Below, in pieces: positions 20,380 to 56,530 of a stretch of 64,000 nt of DNA. Below the pieces are notes generated by a model. It saw only the letters and a program-made list of their open reading frames with translations, did no database searches and was not told where the DNA came from. The first letter of the stretch is position 1, and each line of letters begins with the position of its first letter. The stretch covers positions 177,456-241,455 of the forward strand of contig DS990598.1 of assembly GCA_000155715.1 (NCBI GenBank), given 5' to 3'. This DNA is from a gamma proteobacterium HTCC5015. Its GTDB lineage: Bacteria > Pseudomonadota > Gammaproteobacteria > HTCC5015. The position numbers were made by a program, and so were the translations under genes.

Positions 20380-20406
20380 TGTAGGAGCGTGCCTTGCACG
20401 CGAATG
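20380..20406 (+). repeat. REP-like palindrome, family A
   Basis: TGTAGGAGCGTGCC then TTGCACGCGAATG: an imperfect palindrome with the family A ends. A near-identical copy is at 20696-20723, and an inverted copy at 20988-21013. Similar ones lie at 36051, 37241 and 47558. Confidence 0.8.
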
Positions 20407-20420
20407 GTGTGTGTATTTAA

Positions 20421-20623
20421 TGTCGGGACTGCCCCCGACGGGGCAGCCACTTTCTTTTCTACAGCGAAAAGAAAGTAGCCAAAGAAAACGCCGTCCAATG
20501 CCACACCCTTCGGGTTCCCTGCGATGCTCGGCAAAAACGGCGCCTGTGGAACTCGCTCGTTCCTCGCTTAAGCAGTCCTCGGCTTTATCCGTTTTTGCCT
20601 GTGCTTCTCGGTGTGGCATATGG
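20421..20623. repeat. Dispersed repeat family B, copy 1
   Basis: A 203-bp unit from TGTCGGGACTGCCCC to GTGTGGCATATGG. Its second copy is at 47614-47871. Fixed blocks include CTTTCTTTTC..GAAAAGAAAGTAGCCAA (a hairpin), ATGCCACACCCTTCGGGTT and GATGCTCGGCAAAAACGG. They alternate with segments that differ in sequence but keep dyad symmetry. A family A REP stands just upstream of both copies. Short reading frames inside are repeat translations, not credible genes. Confidence 0.75.
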
Positions 20624-20695
20624 AGATCACAGGCCGCTACTCTGAACTTGACTCGCTTACAGGGATGTAGGTGAAGGGCGTGAGTAGAGAAGCTG

Positions 20696-21013
20696 CTGTA
20701 GGAGCGTGCCTTGCACGCGAATGGTTTGCTGTAAGTTCTAAGCTTTTCTGGTTAAAAGTCTACCTATGCGGCGTCATTAAGAGTCGGCCTGAAGGCCGAC
20801 CCACGGCAATATAGCCGAGCCGGTAAACGCGGTGTAGTGAGTGCTTTTTATCTTGTGTGGATTTGCCGCGGCGCATAATAACCCCTGTCTTAGAGCTTGA
20901 TCCGAAACCTTCGTAGCGAAGGCAAGGAAGCGGCTGCCCCCGACGAGGCAGTTCCGACATTGAAAACACTCCGACGAAGTCGGGCACCATTCGCCTGCAG
21001 GGCAGGCTCCTAC
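20696..21013. repeat. Repeat cluster downstream of leuA
   Basis: Contains REP family A copies at 20696-20723 (plus) and 20988-21013 (minus), and the family D palindrome at 20783-20800. Fragments such as GCCCCCGACGAGGCAG at about 20935-20950 echo the start of family B. The whole stretch from 20363 to 21055 (about 690 bp) holds repeats only and no supportable gene. Confidence 0.65.
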
Positions 21014-21020
21014 GCAACGT

Positions 21021-21048
21021 AGCTCTCCCCCGTGTTGGGGGAAGAGCT
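21021..21048 (-). terminator. Hairpin downstream of pepA
   Basis: AGCTCTCCCCC pairs with GGGGGAAGAGCT (one bulge), a strong GC hairpin eight bases after the pepA stop on the minus strand. No T-run follows, so it is a possible terminator or 3' stabilising structure rather than a textbook rho-independent terminator. Confidence 0.45.
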
Positions 21049-26229: not shown

Positions 26230-26355
26230 AGGCTTCCGTTCCTGCTCGCGCCCCTTACCGACATCCCTGTCGGCAAATCCAGTTCAGGATGACGAGGGGT
26301 ACTCAGGATGACGAAATTTAAAAAGCCGTCATTCCGAACTTGATTCGGAATCTCC
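26220..26355. repeat. Palindromic repeat family C, upstream pair
   Basis: Two copies flank the GIY-YIG gene on its 5' side. One is 26220-26294, a long form in which the two arms GGAGATCCTGA and TCAGGATGACG enclose a variable insert with its own hairpin CCGACATCCCTGTCGG. The other is 26327-26355, the short palindrome GTCATTCCGAACTTGATTCGG plus AATCTCC. Between them lies TACTCAGGATGACGAAATTT, which also occurs after the gene. Confidence 0.85.
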
Positions 26356-26411
26356 AAGCCGGATGCACGATACCAACGGCACGATTGATTCATATTGGAA
26401 AAGGAGATTCC

Positions 26412-26720
26412 ATGAAAACCCCCGCTATTTATATATTAACGAACGCACATCACAGTGTTTTGTATGTCGGTGTTACTTCCCATTTAATTCGACGTATTTA
26501 CGAGCATAGGAACCACTTTGTGAAGGGATTTACTCAGAAATACAATGTCGACCGATGGGTGTATTTTGAGCGGTTTGAGGATATGTACAGCGCGATTTCT
26601 CGTGAGAAACAGTTAAAGGCGTGGCGTCGCCAGTGGAAAGAGGAGCTGGTCAGTCGGTTCAACCCTTGTTGGGAGGATTTGTGGCTTCGGTACGGAGATC
26701 CTGAATCAAGTTCAGGATGA
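26412..26720 (+). CDS. GIY-YIG family endonuclease, repeat-embedded
   Basis: A single-domain GIY-YIG nuclease of 102 residues, starting at the ATG 26412 with AAGGAG five bases upstream. Motifs: YILTNAHHSVLYVGVT (the GIY...YIG pair, here YIL...YVG) at about 7-22, R29 and H32 in LIRRIYEHR, and the distal Glu in SREKQLKAWRR. The last residues (GDPESSSG) and the stop codon are encoded by the flanking palindromic repeat itself. It belongs to the small UPF0213/YhbQ-like group, whose role is poorly known. Repeats of one family lie on both sides and are scattered elsewhere in the window. Confidence 0.88.
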   Translation: MKTPAIYILTNAHHSVLYVGVTSHLIRRIYEHRNHFVKGFTQKYNVDRWVYFERFEDMYSAISREKQLKAWRRQWKEELVSRFNPCWEDLWLRYGDPESSSG

Positions 26721-26866
26721 CGAGGGGGTACTCAGGATGGCGAGGGGATACTCAGGATGAAAAAATTTAAAAAGCCGTCATTCTGAACCTGATTTGGAAT
26801 TTCCCTGACAACCTCATAGTCCCGTCATTCCGAACTTGATTCGGAATCTCCAAACCGGATGCACGC
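26694..26866. repeat. Palindromic repeat family C, downstream set
   Basis: Copies at 26694-26722 (overlapping the end of the nuclease gene), 26776-26804 (diverged) and 26823-26851. The stretch 26823-26866, which continues into CCGGATGCACG, repeats 26327-26370 with one or two differences, so a direct repeat of about 44 bp bounds the nuclease gene. No gene is present between 26721 and 26933 apart from these repeats. Confidence 0.85.
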
Positions 26867-26933
26867 TATTGAGAGGGGCAAGGCAAAGAAAACAAAAGCC
26901 ATCCCTCGCTCTCAGCTATTATAAGCTGAACGA

Positions 26934-32358: not shown

Positions 32359-33216
32359 ATGAAACTGATTTTAAGTCGCAAAGGCTTTGATAGCAGTGCG
32401 GGCGGATGTCCCAGCCCCGTGTTTGAGGACGGCTCGTTTATTACGCTGCCGATACCCGACGAGGAGTCGCCAATTCAATACGGGGATATTCGCCATGCCA
32501 GCACAGACGTGGGGCGCTTGGTGTCGGACCTTACGGGCAACGCCTCTATGGCAATCGCGGGGGCGCATCTCGACCCCGATTTAATGCCAGAGCATCTATC
32601 TCGCTCCTCGGGCTGGCGGCCCAATTTAGGCCAGCACGGCACGGCGCAGTCGCACTTGATTAAGCAATCTGTACAGGTCGGTGATTTGTTCCTGTTTTTT
32701 GGTTTGTTCCAACGCGCCGAGTGGCGCGGCAACGGCTATCAGTTTTTAAAGCAGCACGCGCCGTTTCATGCACTGTGGGGTTGGCTGCAAATTGGCTGTA
32801 TTCTACCTTTGGAACAGGCCGACTTGGTTCCACAATGGGCTCGCTACCACCCTCATTGCTTCGGCCAGCGCCATGGCAACAACAGCTTGTATGTGGCCTC
32901 GGAAAAATTGTTTTTGAATGGGCGGGCAACCGACTTCAACGGGGCGGGGGTGTTTAATCGGCTCACGGCGCACCACCGCTTGACGCGCCCCGAGTCGGCG
33001 CGGCGAACCGAGTGGCAGCTGCCCGAGTTTTTTTATCCCGACGACAATACCCAAGCCATGAGCTACCACGCCAATCTATCGCGCTGGCAGCGCTCAGAAG
33101 AAGAGGGCTTGTGCGCTTTACAAGCTGCCGCTCGCGGCCAAGAGTTTGTTTTTCAACACGGTCATAAAAAGGCGTGTAGCCGCTGGATTAACAATCTACT
33201 AGCGAAAGGGGGCTAG
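32359..33216 (+). CDS. Nmad3-like protein (putative nucleotide modification)
   Basis: The protein has 285 residues, from the ATG at 32359. The N-terminal MKLILSRKGFDSSAGG followed by PSPVF..G..ITLPIPD is, as I recall, the signature of Nmad3 (nucleotide-modification-associated domain 3) proteins, whose biochemical role is not established. Other conserved-looking elements are SHLIKQSVQVGDLFLFFGLF and GNNSLYVASEKL. It lies 13 bp after epmA in the same direction and is likely co-transcribed with efp-epmA. The stop codon TAG falls inside the terminal CTAG of the MITE that follows. Confidence 0.72.
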   Translation: MKLILSRKGFDSSAGGCPSPVFEDGSFITLPIPDEESPIQYGDIRHASTDVGRLVSDLTGNASMAIAGAHLDPDLMPEHLSRSSGWRPNLGQHGTAQSHLIKQSVQVGDLFLFFGLFQRAEWRGNGYQFLKQHAPFHALWGWLQIGCILPLEQADLVPQWARYHPHCFGQRHGNNSLYVASEKLFLNGRATDFNGAGVFNRLTAHHRLTRPESARRTEWQLPEFFYPDDNTQAMSYHANLSRWQRSEEEGLCALQAAARGQEFVFQHGHKKACSRWINNLLAKGG

Positions 33217-33483
33217 GGCCTGTTAACACAAATTTTATGATCTCTGCTGGAAGCCATTTTCCTGCCCAGCAAGGCAGAAGGCGTGCCGTGTAGTCCGTCT
33301 ACACAAACAACGGATAACGCAGCTGGGCGGAAAAGAGCTCCAGCCCTTCGGGTTGTGGCTAAAAAAGCGCCACTCATCGTTGCTCGTCGCTCATTTGGAT
33401 TCACCAAACCACGCTCCTTGCGCCTTGATTGGCGCTTTTTTAGTCACAACAGTGACCATCAAATTTGTGTTAACAGGCCCTAG
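33213..33483. mobile_element. MITE-like element with 23-bp terminal inverted repeats
   Basis: The element is 271 bp including both CTAG ends. The termini are perfect inverted repeats: 33213-33235 begins CTAGGGCCTGTTAACACAAA, and 33461-33483 is its reverse complement. It encodes no protein. Internally, AAAAAAGCGCC (about 33361) and GGCGCTTTTTT (about 33431) form another inverted repeat. CTAG is present at both ends and may be a 4-bp target duplication. Removing one CTAG plus the interior leaves two convergent genes whose TAG stop codons share a single CTAG. The transposase that moves it is not in the window. Confidence 0.85.
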
Positions 33484-34256
33484 TGCGTTTCGGTTTCGAG
33501 CTGGCGCCAACGCGTGGGGTAGTAGTCCATAGCGCCGGCCTCTTGGAAAATACGTCGCAACGCACCGCTTTTTAGCAGTTTTGGGAATTGGGTGTCCCAA
33601 ATGTGAATCAGTTGGCGGGATCGCTCCGTGGGAGCAAAGCCTAGATACAAGCCGAGCTGGGTTAACTCACGCAGCTCCAGTGGTTTTTGATCCGCTGAGC
33701 GCTGCTCCAATAGCCACTGTAAATCCTCTTTGGCTTCCGCAACAAAGTCGGTGCGATCTAATTCCACTAGCTTAACGGCCTGTGACAATTTATTAACGGT
33801 CACGCTCTCAAAGTCCGCATGGAGATATTGAGGCAGGGAATAGCCGCGCAAATACGCAATACGCTTGCCATTTAAAGAGGCCTCTCCCTGCCAGTTTTGA
33901 AAGCTCGTCGGCTTGGCTAAAACGGAGAGTACTTCGTAATCGTGGGCCCACTTTGGGTAAATCGCGAACGCTTGCTCATTTTTGTAAGCGGCTGCCCAAG
34001 CGTCTGCATGGCCTTGTTTTACCGCTTTGATGGCGCGATTGTAGGGCAGGATTTCAGTCGTTACGGTAACGCCGCCGCGAGCAAAAACGGCCTTTAACAC
34101 CTGCCATAACCGCCCTTGACCATCGTGTTCGGCGTAGCCCTCCCAGAATTGGCTCACGATGTGAATCTGTGTCAATGGCTTGTCTGAGTGTGCAGGCACA
34201 CCCCATAAACTGGAGAGCAAAAGCAGGGATAGCGTCAGTAATCGTCGGGTGTACAT
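33480..34256 (-). CDS. Periplasmic substrate-binding-like protein (SBP_bac_3 type)
   Basis: The protein has 258 residues from the ATG at 34256; the next 20 residues (RRLLTLSLLLLSSLWGVPAHS) are a signal peptide. A longer frame would overlap the neighbouring gene. The fold pattern (FARGGVTVTTEILPYNRAIKAVKQGHADAW, then a C-terminal lobe) is that of family 3 solute-binding proteins. No transporter genes are adjacent, so it may act as a free-standing sensor or binding protein. Its stop codon lies in the end of the MITE. Confidence 0.8.
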   Translation of the reverse strand: MYTRRLLTLSLLLLSSLWGVPAHSDKPLTQIHIVSQFWEGYAEHDGQGRLWQVLKAVFARGGVTVTTEILPYNRAIKAVKQGHADAWAAAYKNEQAFAIYPKWAHDYEVLSVLAKPTSFQNWQGEASLNGKRIAYLRGYSLPQYLHADFESVTVNKLSQAVKLVELDRTDFVAEAKEDLQWLLEQRSADQKPLELRELTQLGLYLGFAPTERSRQLIHIWDTQFPKLLKSGALRRIFQEAGAMDYYPTRWRQLETETH

Positions 34257-34341
34257 CGCTTTAGAGTAGATCAAGCGAGTTAATTTACCAACAATGAGCG
34301 GCGGATCTATCGTGCGTCGAGGCAAAGCCGTTTCGCATTTT

Positions 34342-37088: not shown

Positions 37089-37117
37089 AATGGGTTTGTT
37101 CGAGGGTGCTGTTGGAG

Positions 37118-37351
37118 GGAGATCCTGAAGCTTCCGCTCTTGCTCGCGCTCCTTACCTACATCCCTGTAGGCAAATCAAGTTCAGGATGACGTGTAGTTG
37201 GTCCGGGATGGCGTGCAGTGGGTTCGGGGTGACGTGGTTGCTGTAGGAGCCTGCCTTGCAGGCGATGAGCTGCTCGGGGTCATTAGTTCCCCCTCTCCCC
37301 GGCCCTCTCCCGCGGAGGGGAGAGGGAGTGTGGGTCGGGCTTCAGCCCGAC
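37118..37351. repeat. Repeat block upstream of mrcB
   Basis: The 397-bp gap 37089-37485 contains a long family C palindrome (37118-37192, with the inner hairpin CCTACATCCCTGTAGG), a REP family A copy (37241-37267) and a family D palindrome (37334-37351). A C-rich stretch (CCCCTCTCCCC..CCCTCTCCC) lies near 37289. A 90-codon reading frame across it is made of repeats and is not a credible gene. Confidence 0.7.
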
Positions 37352-47444: not shown

Positions 47445-47526
47445 GGTTCACTTGTGTTTAGTATTTACGCCCATTCTAGCAGGACGGCTTGGGGTTGCCA
47501 CTGTGGCCTACGGGTGGGGTTAGGCT

Positions 47527-47586
47527 GTCATTCCGAACTTGATTCGCAATCTACAGAGTGTAGGAGCCTGCCCTGCAGGCGAATGT
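47527..47586. repeat. Family C palindrome and REP family A upstream of hpnC
   Basis: A family C palindrome at 47527-47554 (GTCATTCCGAACTTGATTCG plus CAATCTAC) is followed at once by REP family A at 47558-47586. Together with the following entries, these fill the 713-bp gap 47445-48157, which has no gene. Confidence 0.75.
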
Positions 47587-47613
47587 GTATGGCTTCGCCA
47601 AAGGATCATTATA

Positions 47614-47871
47614 TGTCGGGACTGACCCCGACGGTGCAGCCACTTTCTTTTCTTCAACGAAAAGAAAGTAGCCAAGCGCAGACAGCTGCTCCTGCGCAGT
47701 CTGCATTTCCGCCTTCCTTGGCGGTCAACACGCCGTCCGATGCCACACCCTTCGGGTTCCCTGCGATGCTCGGCAAAAACGGCGCCTGCGGAACTCACAA
47801 ACCCTGCGGGTTTGTTCAAACAGTCCTCGGCTTCATCCGTTATAGCCTGCGCTTCTCGGTGTGGCATATGG
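47614..47871. repeat. Dispersed repeat family B, copy 2
   Basis: A 258-bp second copy of the unit at 20421-20623. The ends and the central blocks are conserved. An extra segment of about 50 bp with dyad symmetry (about 47672-47730) is inserted. The later loop is replaced by a different hairpin (CAAACCCTGCGGGTTTG). Confidence 0.75.
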
Positions 47872-47897
47872 ATTTACGCGCACCACACTGAATAGGC

Positions 47898-48136
47898 CGT
47901 CATGCTGAACGTGATTCGGCATCTTCAAAACGGAGTGCCGTGGGTCGGGCTTCAGCCCGACTTTGGCCTGACAATTCGGAGCATGAGCAGTGATAGTGAG
48001 AAACACCATAAAACATGATGTGTTTTATTTCGCGTCGGCTCGGGCACCCTAAAGGGCATAAAGGCGGCCTCCTACAACTGAACACACACCGACCACTCGA
48101 AAATCGCTCTGTGGGAGGGTCGCCCACGGCCCGACC
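47898..48136. repeat. Repeats C, D and inverted REP pair E upstream of mupP
   Basis: Family C (47898-47926), family D (47945-47962), then a reversed family E pair (48033-48136) that mirrors the unit after the RAYT gene. The family E pair ends 22 bp from the mupP stop codon and might affect its mRNA end. Confidence 0.75.
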
Positions 48137-56035: not shown

Positions 56036-56530
56036 GTCATCCTGACTTGATTTTCCGACAGGAAAGTCGATAAGGGGCGTGAGCCGGAGCGGAAGCTTGA
56101 CTCAGGGCGTCACTCTACCCACCACCACCGTCATCCTGAACTTGATTTGCCTACAGGGATGTAGGTAAGGAGCGCGAGCAGGAGCGGGAGCTTCAGGATC
56201 TCCCAACCGACACTTCGTTCTGGAGATTCCAAATCAAGTTTGGAATGACGGTGGTGGGAGTCTGAAATGACGGTAGGGACTTCGTTTCTGATTTTGGTGT
56301 CAAAAACACAGAGTTCTCAGTGTACACAGAGTGCACCGAGCTTTTTAAAAGGCTACTTGATTGGAACGCGTTGGATGTGTTCAACATCAAAGGCTTTGTG
56401 TTCTCTGTGGCCTCTGTGGCCTCTGTGGCCTCTGTGGCCTCTGTGTTTTTACACCGACCTCTCTCCAGAGATTCCAGATCCAGTCTGGAATGACGGCGGT
56501 GAGTAGATTGTTTCACTGCGTTCGCAGTGA
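56036..56530. repeat. Family C repeat block and other palindromes
   Basis: The 603-bp gap 56002-56604 has no gene. It holds family C long forms at about 56036-56110 and 56129-56203 (inner hairpin CCTACAGGGATGTAGG), short forms at 56222-56250 and 56467-56494, and a half-copy of the CGTCATTGCGAG family near 56506-56525. The 9-bp tandem array at 56403-56445 lies within it. Confidence 0.75.
56403..56445. repeat. 9-bp tandem repeat (CTCTGTGGC)
   Basis: Four perfect units CTCTGTGGC at 56403-56438 followed by a partial unit CTCTGTG. Related CACAGAG motifs occur upstream at about 56308-56330, in inverted orientation. Confidence 0.85.

Follow-up and report, generated by a model that had tools for sequence, protein, structure and literature searches.

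MITEs that are related to the IS5 family, are mobile and insert at CTAG or YTAA are already known, the described case being MITEPsy1/ISPsy2 (IS5 family) of Pseudomonas syringae, for which transposition has been shown (PMC3189936). The element considered here, located in a stretch of 64,000 nucleotides from the gamma proteobacterium HTCC5015 (called the window below), is similar to MITEPsy1 in its relation to IS5 and in its CTAG/YTAA-type target. MITEPsy1 is, however, 100 nt long, has the ends GGAAGGTCTGAAAAAGCC, has no reported two-hairpin interior and is reported to duplicate 4 nt, while the element in the window duplicates TA (PMC3189936). The Correia/NEMIS and RUP elements are TA-type MITEs that are likewise small, non-coding, folded and intergenic, duplicate TA and are mobilised in trans, but they are 107–155 bp long and found in single hosts, and RUP is IS630-related (PMC2229807). 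No stop-codon preference has been reported for either of them in the literature surveyed. REP palindromes are moved by RAYT proteins. These and the GTAG-tagged palindromes are also dispersed and mainly extragenic, but they measure 20–40 bp and have no TA duplication (PMC3733652). A 2024 review of MITEs does not mention stop codons (PMC10969869).

In the window, CTAG occurs at positions 33213–33216 and again at 33480–33483, bracketing a non-coding core of 265 bp (GGGCCTGTTAACAC...GTGTTAACAGGCCC, 33216–33480, plus strand), which was delimited by alignment of its copies. The termini are perfect inverted repeats over 23 bp, as the sequence-only reading had stated, and extend to 37 bp at 89%. Based on folding and covariation, the left (33216–33249, plus strand) and right (33447–33480, minus strand) terminal inverted repeats form a stem P1. 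Between them lie hairpin 1 of about 98 nt (33246–33343), which is based on the DNA fold of the whole element (−80 kcal/mol, z −12.6) and on covariation in 24 diverged relatives, the linker CCC TTC GGG (33344–33352), which is CCCnnnGGG in most relatives, and hairpin 2 (33351–33452), with a GGCGC stem that in this host is followed by T6 on either strand and is thus terminator-like. The core is flanked by the two copies of the TA target duplication, at 33214–33215 (assigned from the copies in register and from natural empty sites in relatives) and 33481–33482. Outside these, C33213 and G33483 are host DNA and constitute the outer bases of a YTAR target, being C/T and G/A, respectively, in nearly all copies.

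About 40 near-full-length copies with 97–100% identity are present in the 2.63-Mb genome, which means that the element at the locus is no chance repeat, and the 34 copies with a length of exactly 265 bp differ pairwise by 2.1% on average, which points to a recent burst. The element is thus short, non-coding and multicopy, with inverted ends and a TA duplication; natural empty sites exist in sister species of a Thiodiazotropha genome (G351), and the ends (TAGGGCCTGTTNACACTAA) are common to autonomous IS of 801–806 bp in another genome (G118) that belong to the IS5 family. The earlier designation as a MITE can therefore be retained. The genome of HTCC5015 also contains two 168-bp forms without hairpin 2 (L043:1863–2034 and L044:1517–1688, with identical deletion junctions) and a 48-bp form without both hairpins (L045:7156–7207), all of which carry TA duplications. 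A second, diverged family (GGGCCTGTTCACACTCATT) has left remnants with a single end at L047:1527, L049:1660 and L042:1505, and further dispersed repeats occur in the window at 26296–26868, 47495–47943, 20380–21022, 37108–37273 and 56041–56257 (GTCATTCCGAACTTGATTCGGAATC; TGTAGGAGCGTGCCTTGCACGCG; others).

The copies are in register, with YTA/GGGCC on the left and GGCCC/TAR on the right (the slash being the element boundary). For the 39 clean TA...TA insertions of this genome, the target is YTAR in 37 cases (CTAG 17, CTAA/TTAG 18, TTAA 2), and the same holds for 27 of the 28 clean insertions in G351. CTAG makes up 17 of the 37 YTAR targets here versus 20% of the non-coding YTAR sites, which bears out the proposal that it is favoured. 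It had also been proposed that the whole CTAG is duplicated, but this has to be corrected, since only the central TA is. Copies of the forms TTAGGG...CCCTAG and CTAGGG...CCCTAA occur in this genome, and hence the inner G/C is part of the element, with the outer C/T and G/A supplied by the target. Joined flanks were used to look for empty sites in 22 genomes from the genus to which G351 (contigs matching Ca. Thiodiazotropha endolucinida) belongs. In the sister species, a single-copy, contiguous YTAR was found at the sites of L127, L121, L122, L132 and L117, in the form of an uninterrupted CTAG or, at L117, TTAA; stop codons lie at two of these sites, those of L122 and L117. The TTAA empty site establishes that the duplication is TA and, together with the TTAG...CTAG and CTAG...CTAA copies, rules out a 4-bp CTAG duplication. 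No empty site was found for the window locus, and its minus-strand gene has no homologue in the three relatives examined; the predicted empty site is GGGGGCTAGTGCG. At the L110 site, where G351 carries the element, L344 of a sister species (G374) has CTAGGGCCTGCTAACAG, which may be a solo end or the trace of an excision.

The upstream gene (32362–33216, plus strand) encodes an Nmad3 domain (PF18754, E 7e-81) and stops with the TAG at 33214–33216, while the convergent gene (33480–34316, minus strand), which has no Pfam or NCBIfam match, stops with the TAG at 33482–33480; both start codons are uncertain. The two genes end thus at TAGs within the flanking CTAGs, as had been noticed from the sequence, and each stop is composed of a TA of the target and a base of the element, namely 33214–33215 with G33216 on the left and 33481–33482 with C33480 on the right. 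Because the element ends in G...C, a YTAR target gives YTA+G on the left and C+TAR on the right, and a TAA or TAG stop preceded by C or T therefore becomes or stays TAG, on either strand. That the codon loss at such a stop is zero follows from the sequence alone, and the original observation that the insertion cost neither gene a codon is explained by this geometry, with TA alone duplicated. For two convergent genes with their stops in one YTAR, the insertion would be invisible to both proteins.

The IS in G118 share the ends of the MITE, perfectly at both ends in L294 and with one mismatch in L296 and L305, and their targets are likewise YTAR (TTAA, CTAA and CTAG). Their transposase has the domains PF13340 and PF01609 (DUF4096 + DDE_Tnp_1) and scores 227 bits against NF033580 'IS5 family', with a cut-off of 110, which places the partner transposase in the IS5 family. 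The terminal ca 19 bp and the YTAR target are the same as in the MITE, but these IS carry a transposase, and the interior of the MITE does not descend from theirs, the ends apart. In the genome of HTCC5015 itself (30 contigs, 98.9% complete) there is no match to an IS5-type (PF13340) transposase; active MITEs usually coexist with their partner, although the definition does not strictly require this. The PF01609 hits in this genome belong to another IS type, and the IS4-like transposase was rejected as the mover, as its loci do not have the ends of the MITE. This IS4-type element is present as two copies of ca 1.7 kb at C26:99078 and C27:21231 (L055 and L056), which are 99.9% identical and encode a 457-aa transposase; C30 carries a third copy, which is incomplete (L057). 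In the mechanism that we propose, an IS5-family (DUF4096 + DDE_Tnp_1) transposase would move the MITE in trans by recognising the ca 19-bp ends, and would insert it into the TA of YTAR, with CTAG as the best target and TA alone duplicated. Judging from the shared ends and target, a transposase of the G118 type would also have moved the copy in the window.

To count insertions at stop codons, genes were called by a home-made codon-usage script, and not by standard annotation, in the loci restored to their empty state as well as in a 464-kb background. The backgrounds were pooled, and the multi-species set consists only of 255–285 bp elements whose end motifs are exact. In HTCC5015, 4 insertions lie in genes, 16 at stop codons and 19 at other intergenic positions, versus 2973/153/844 YTAR sites; the corresponding numbers are 7/22/37 versus 1502/88/907 in the other species and 1/4/23 versus 239/21/266 in G351. 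Coding sequence is thus avoided in HTCC5015 (4 of 39 insertions versus 2973 of 3970 YTAR sites, p=4e-17). Within non-coding sequence, stops are hit by 16 of 35 insertions in this genome, compared to 153 of 997 YTAR sites (motif-stratified OR 4.0, p=3.5e-5), and by 22 of 59 in the other species, compared to 88 of 995 (OR 5.6, p=2.6e-9), while G351 has no stop excess (OR 1.2, not significant). For sites at most 50 nt from a stop, the OR is 2.0 in HTCC5015 (p=0.09), 5.2 in the multi-species set (p=4e-4) and 0.8 in G351; near gene 3' ends the excess at the exact stop is weak in HTCC5015, and only the multi-species set shows it clearly. A TA common to two convergent stops was found for 6 of 121 non-coding insertions versus 7 of 2279 background sites (Fisher p=2e-5), where the window copy had been chosen for this feature and the other five had not. 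Three of the six are in HTCC5015 (L001, L010 and L031), and the others are in Andreprevotia (L209), Gilvimarinus (L203) and Alcanivorax (L239). The suggestion that the element favours gene ends, or that selection removed other outcomes, agrees thus with the stop excess in two of the three data sets but not with G351. Taken together, we consider it highly probable that the element is a non-autonomous, IS5-dependent MITE that inserts at the TA of YTAR and spares stops, the stop excess being probably due to selection and CTAG preference.

A scan for paired ends over 85,000 species gave at least 120 stretches, distributed over the gamma-, beta-, alpha- and zetaproteobacteria. Andreprevotia lacus, Ca. 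Thiodiazotropha and Sessilibacter are among the hosts rich in the family. Of 85 elements (the one in the window and 84 from fetched loci), 80 are 267–270 bp from TA to TA, where about 255–285 bp was allowed; with the length unrestricted, 292- and 227-bp forms are commoner in G351. The identity to the window copy goes down to 58% among the elements gathered, and yet almost all representatives have one and the same Y-shaped fold, consisting of the terminal stem, hairpin 1, CCCnnnGGG and hairpin 2. In an alignment of 24 sequences, about 72–73 of the 95 predicted pairs show two-sided compensatory change, 89.7% of the cells are paired, where shuffling gives 68.8% and a shift by 1–3 columns about 40%, and there are 457 double changes versus 134, although part of this covariation is expected, as the alignment used for scoring is the one from which the structure had been predicted. 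In all 24 sequences, the tip of one hairpin is an inverted copy of the tip of the other, which means that both strands fold alike, and G-T and A-C mismatches are equal in number (64:63, summed over the three main stems). An asymmetry between these mismatches in the hairpin tips was disregarded, since an RNA energy model had been used to choose the pairs in that region. The inverted tips and the equal mismatches are easier to reconcile with a constraint that acts on the DNA or on both strands alike than with an RNA made from one strand; the fold may, for example, be recognised as folded or cruciform DNA by the transposase or a host factor. To our knowledge, this three-stem fold kept in diverged relatives over four proteobacterial classes is new, and no name for the family was found in Rfam, plasmid annotation or the literature, where most subscription journals fall outside the coverage. 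At L187:685–951, hairpin 2 is inverted compared to most relatives, as if flipped, and at L097:4312–4580 the hairpin order is inverted, as judged by eye. Unannotated plasmid elements with the same layout and variant ends (TAGGGTCTGTTGACG / TAGGGCCTGTTGACG) occur in P. aeruginosa plasmid NZ_CP017294 (L309), Azotobacter pAcX50f (L310) and Halomonas sp. PA16-9 (L311).

As to the cause of the stop excess, strong selection acts against insertions within genes, from which sites at stop codons would be exempt, and the excess probably results from this exemption in combination with the preference for CTAG; we infer that selection, and not a hidden targeting rule, gives rise to it. One could argue that it is just a by-product of the CTAG/YTAR preference, since stops hold TAA/TAG and are hence frequent non-coding targets. 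CTAG is indeed clearly preferred, with C at the −1 position in 65% versus 38% in the background, and the excess is absent from G351 once motif-stratified. Nevertheless, the pooled motif-stratified OR for stops versus other non-coding sites remains at 3.9 (p=2e-11), and that of the other species at 5.6, and the 3'-proximal sites (at most 50 nt from a stop) alone give a pooled OR of 2.6 (p=7e-4), which makes this option unlikely. We also doubt that the insertions were selected for a benefit, with the element providing an mRNA 3' end or terminating transcription in both directions. Hairpin 2 has in this host the GGCGC stem and T6 on both strands, and genes tend to enter from its side (24:10 over single-stop sites), but this orientation bias is weak, and a terminator scan found no more than shuffled sequences would give (1 versus 0.8 expected). 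The T-run is moreover lost in diverged relatives, and a terminator as conserved function was rejected on this ground.

Other options concern the nature of the element itself. IS630 prefers TA within CTAG, so that the TA duplication and the CTAG preference could suggest an IS630/Tc1-mariner MITE; however, the IS found with the ends of the MITE encode the IS5-family DUF4096/DDE_Tnp_1 transposase, and we regard this assignment as very improbable. The strong covariation, with 89.7% versus 68.8% of the cells paired and two-sided change in most of the 95 pairs, could alternatively be that of a structured RNA gene spread through transposition. This is quite unlikely, as the Rfam search of the element gave no match to a curated structured ncRNA, a search for a promoter-like site found none, the mismatches in the main stems have no strand preference, and the inverted tips make both strands fold alike. 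Long palindromes undergo template-switch correction, and the stems could conceivably be kept perfect by such correction of quasi-palindromes in replication, without selection. The inversion of hairpin 2 seen in L187, and seemingly also in L097, and the forms that have lost hairpins (168 and 48 bp) are consistent with this possibility, which we nonetheless do not favour, because on its own it leaves the constant stem positions and the recurrent size of ca 265 bp over four classes unexplained.

Returning to the IS5-dependent MITE, we tentatively raise the possibility of a pan-proteobacterial MITE superfamily, in which a strand-symmetric DNA Y-fold (three long stems, ca 265 bp) is under selection and the ends have evolved to make stops safe landing sites. 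The YTAR target and the terminal G, which rebuild the stop on either strand, provide a concrete rule for harmless insertion in compact genomes, and this rule can be checked in any genome. The covarying Y-fold in sequence-diverged elements of four classes raises in turn the question of why a 'passive' MITE would conserve structure.
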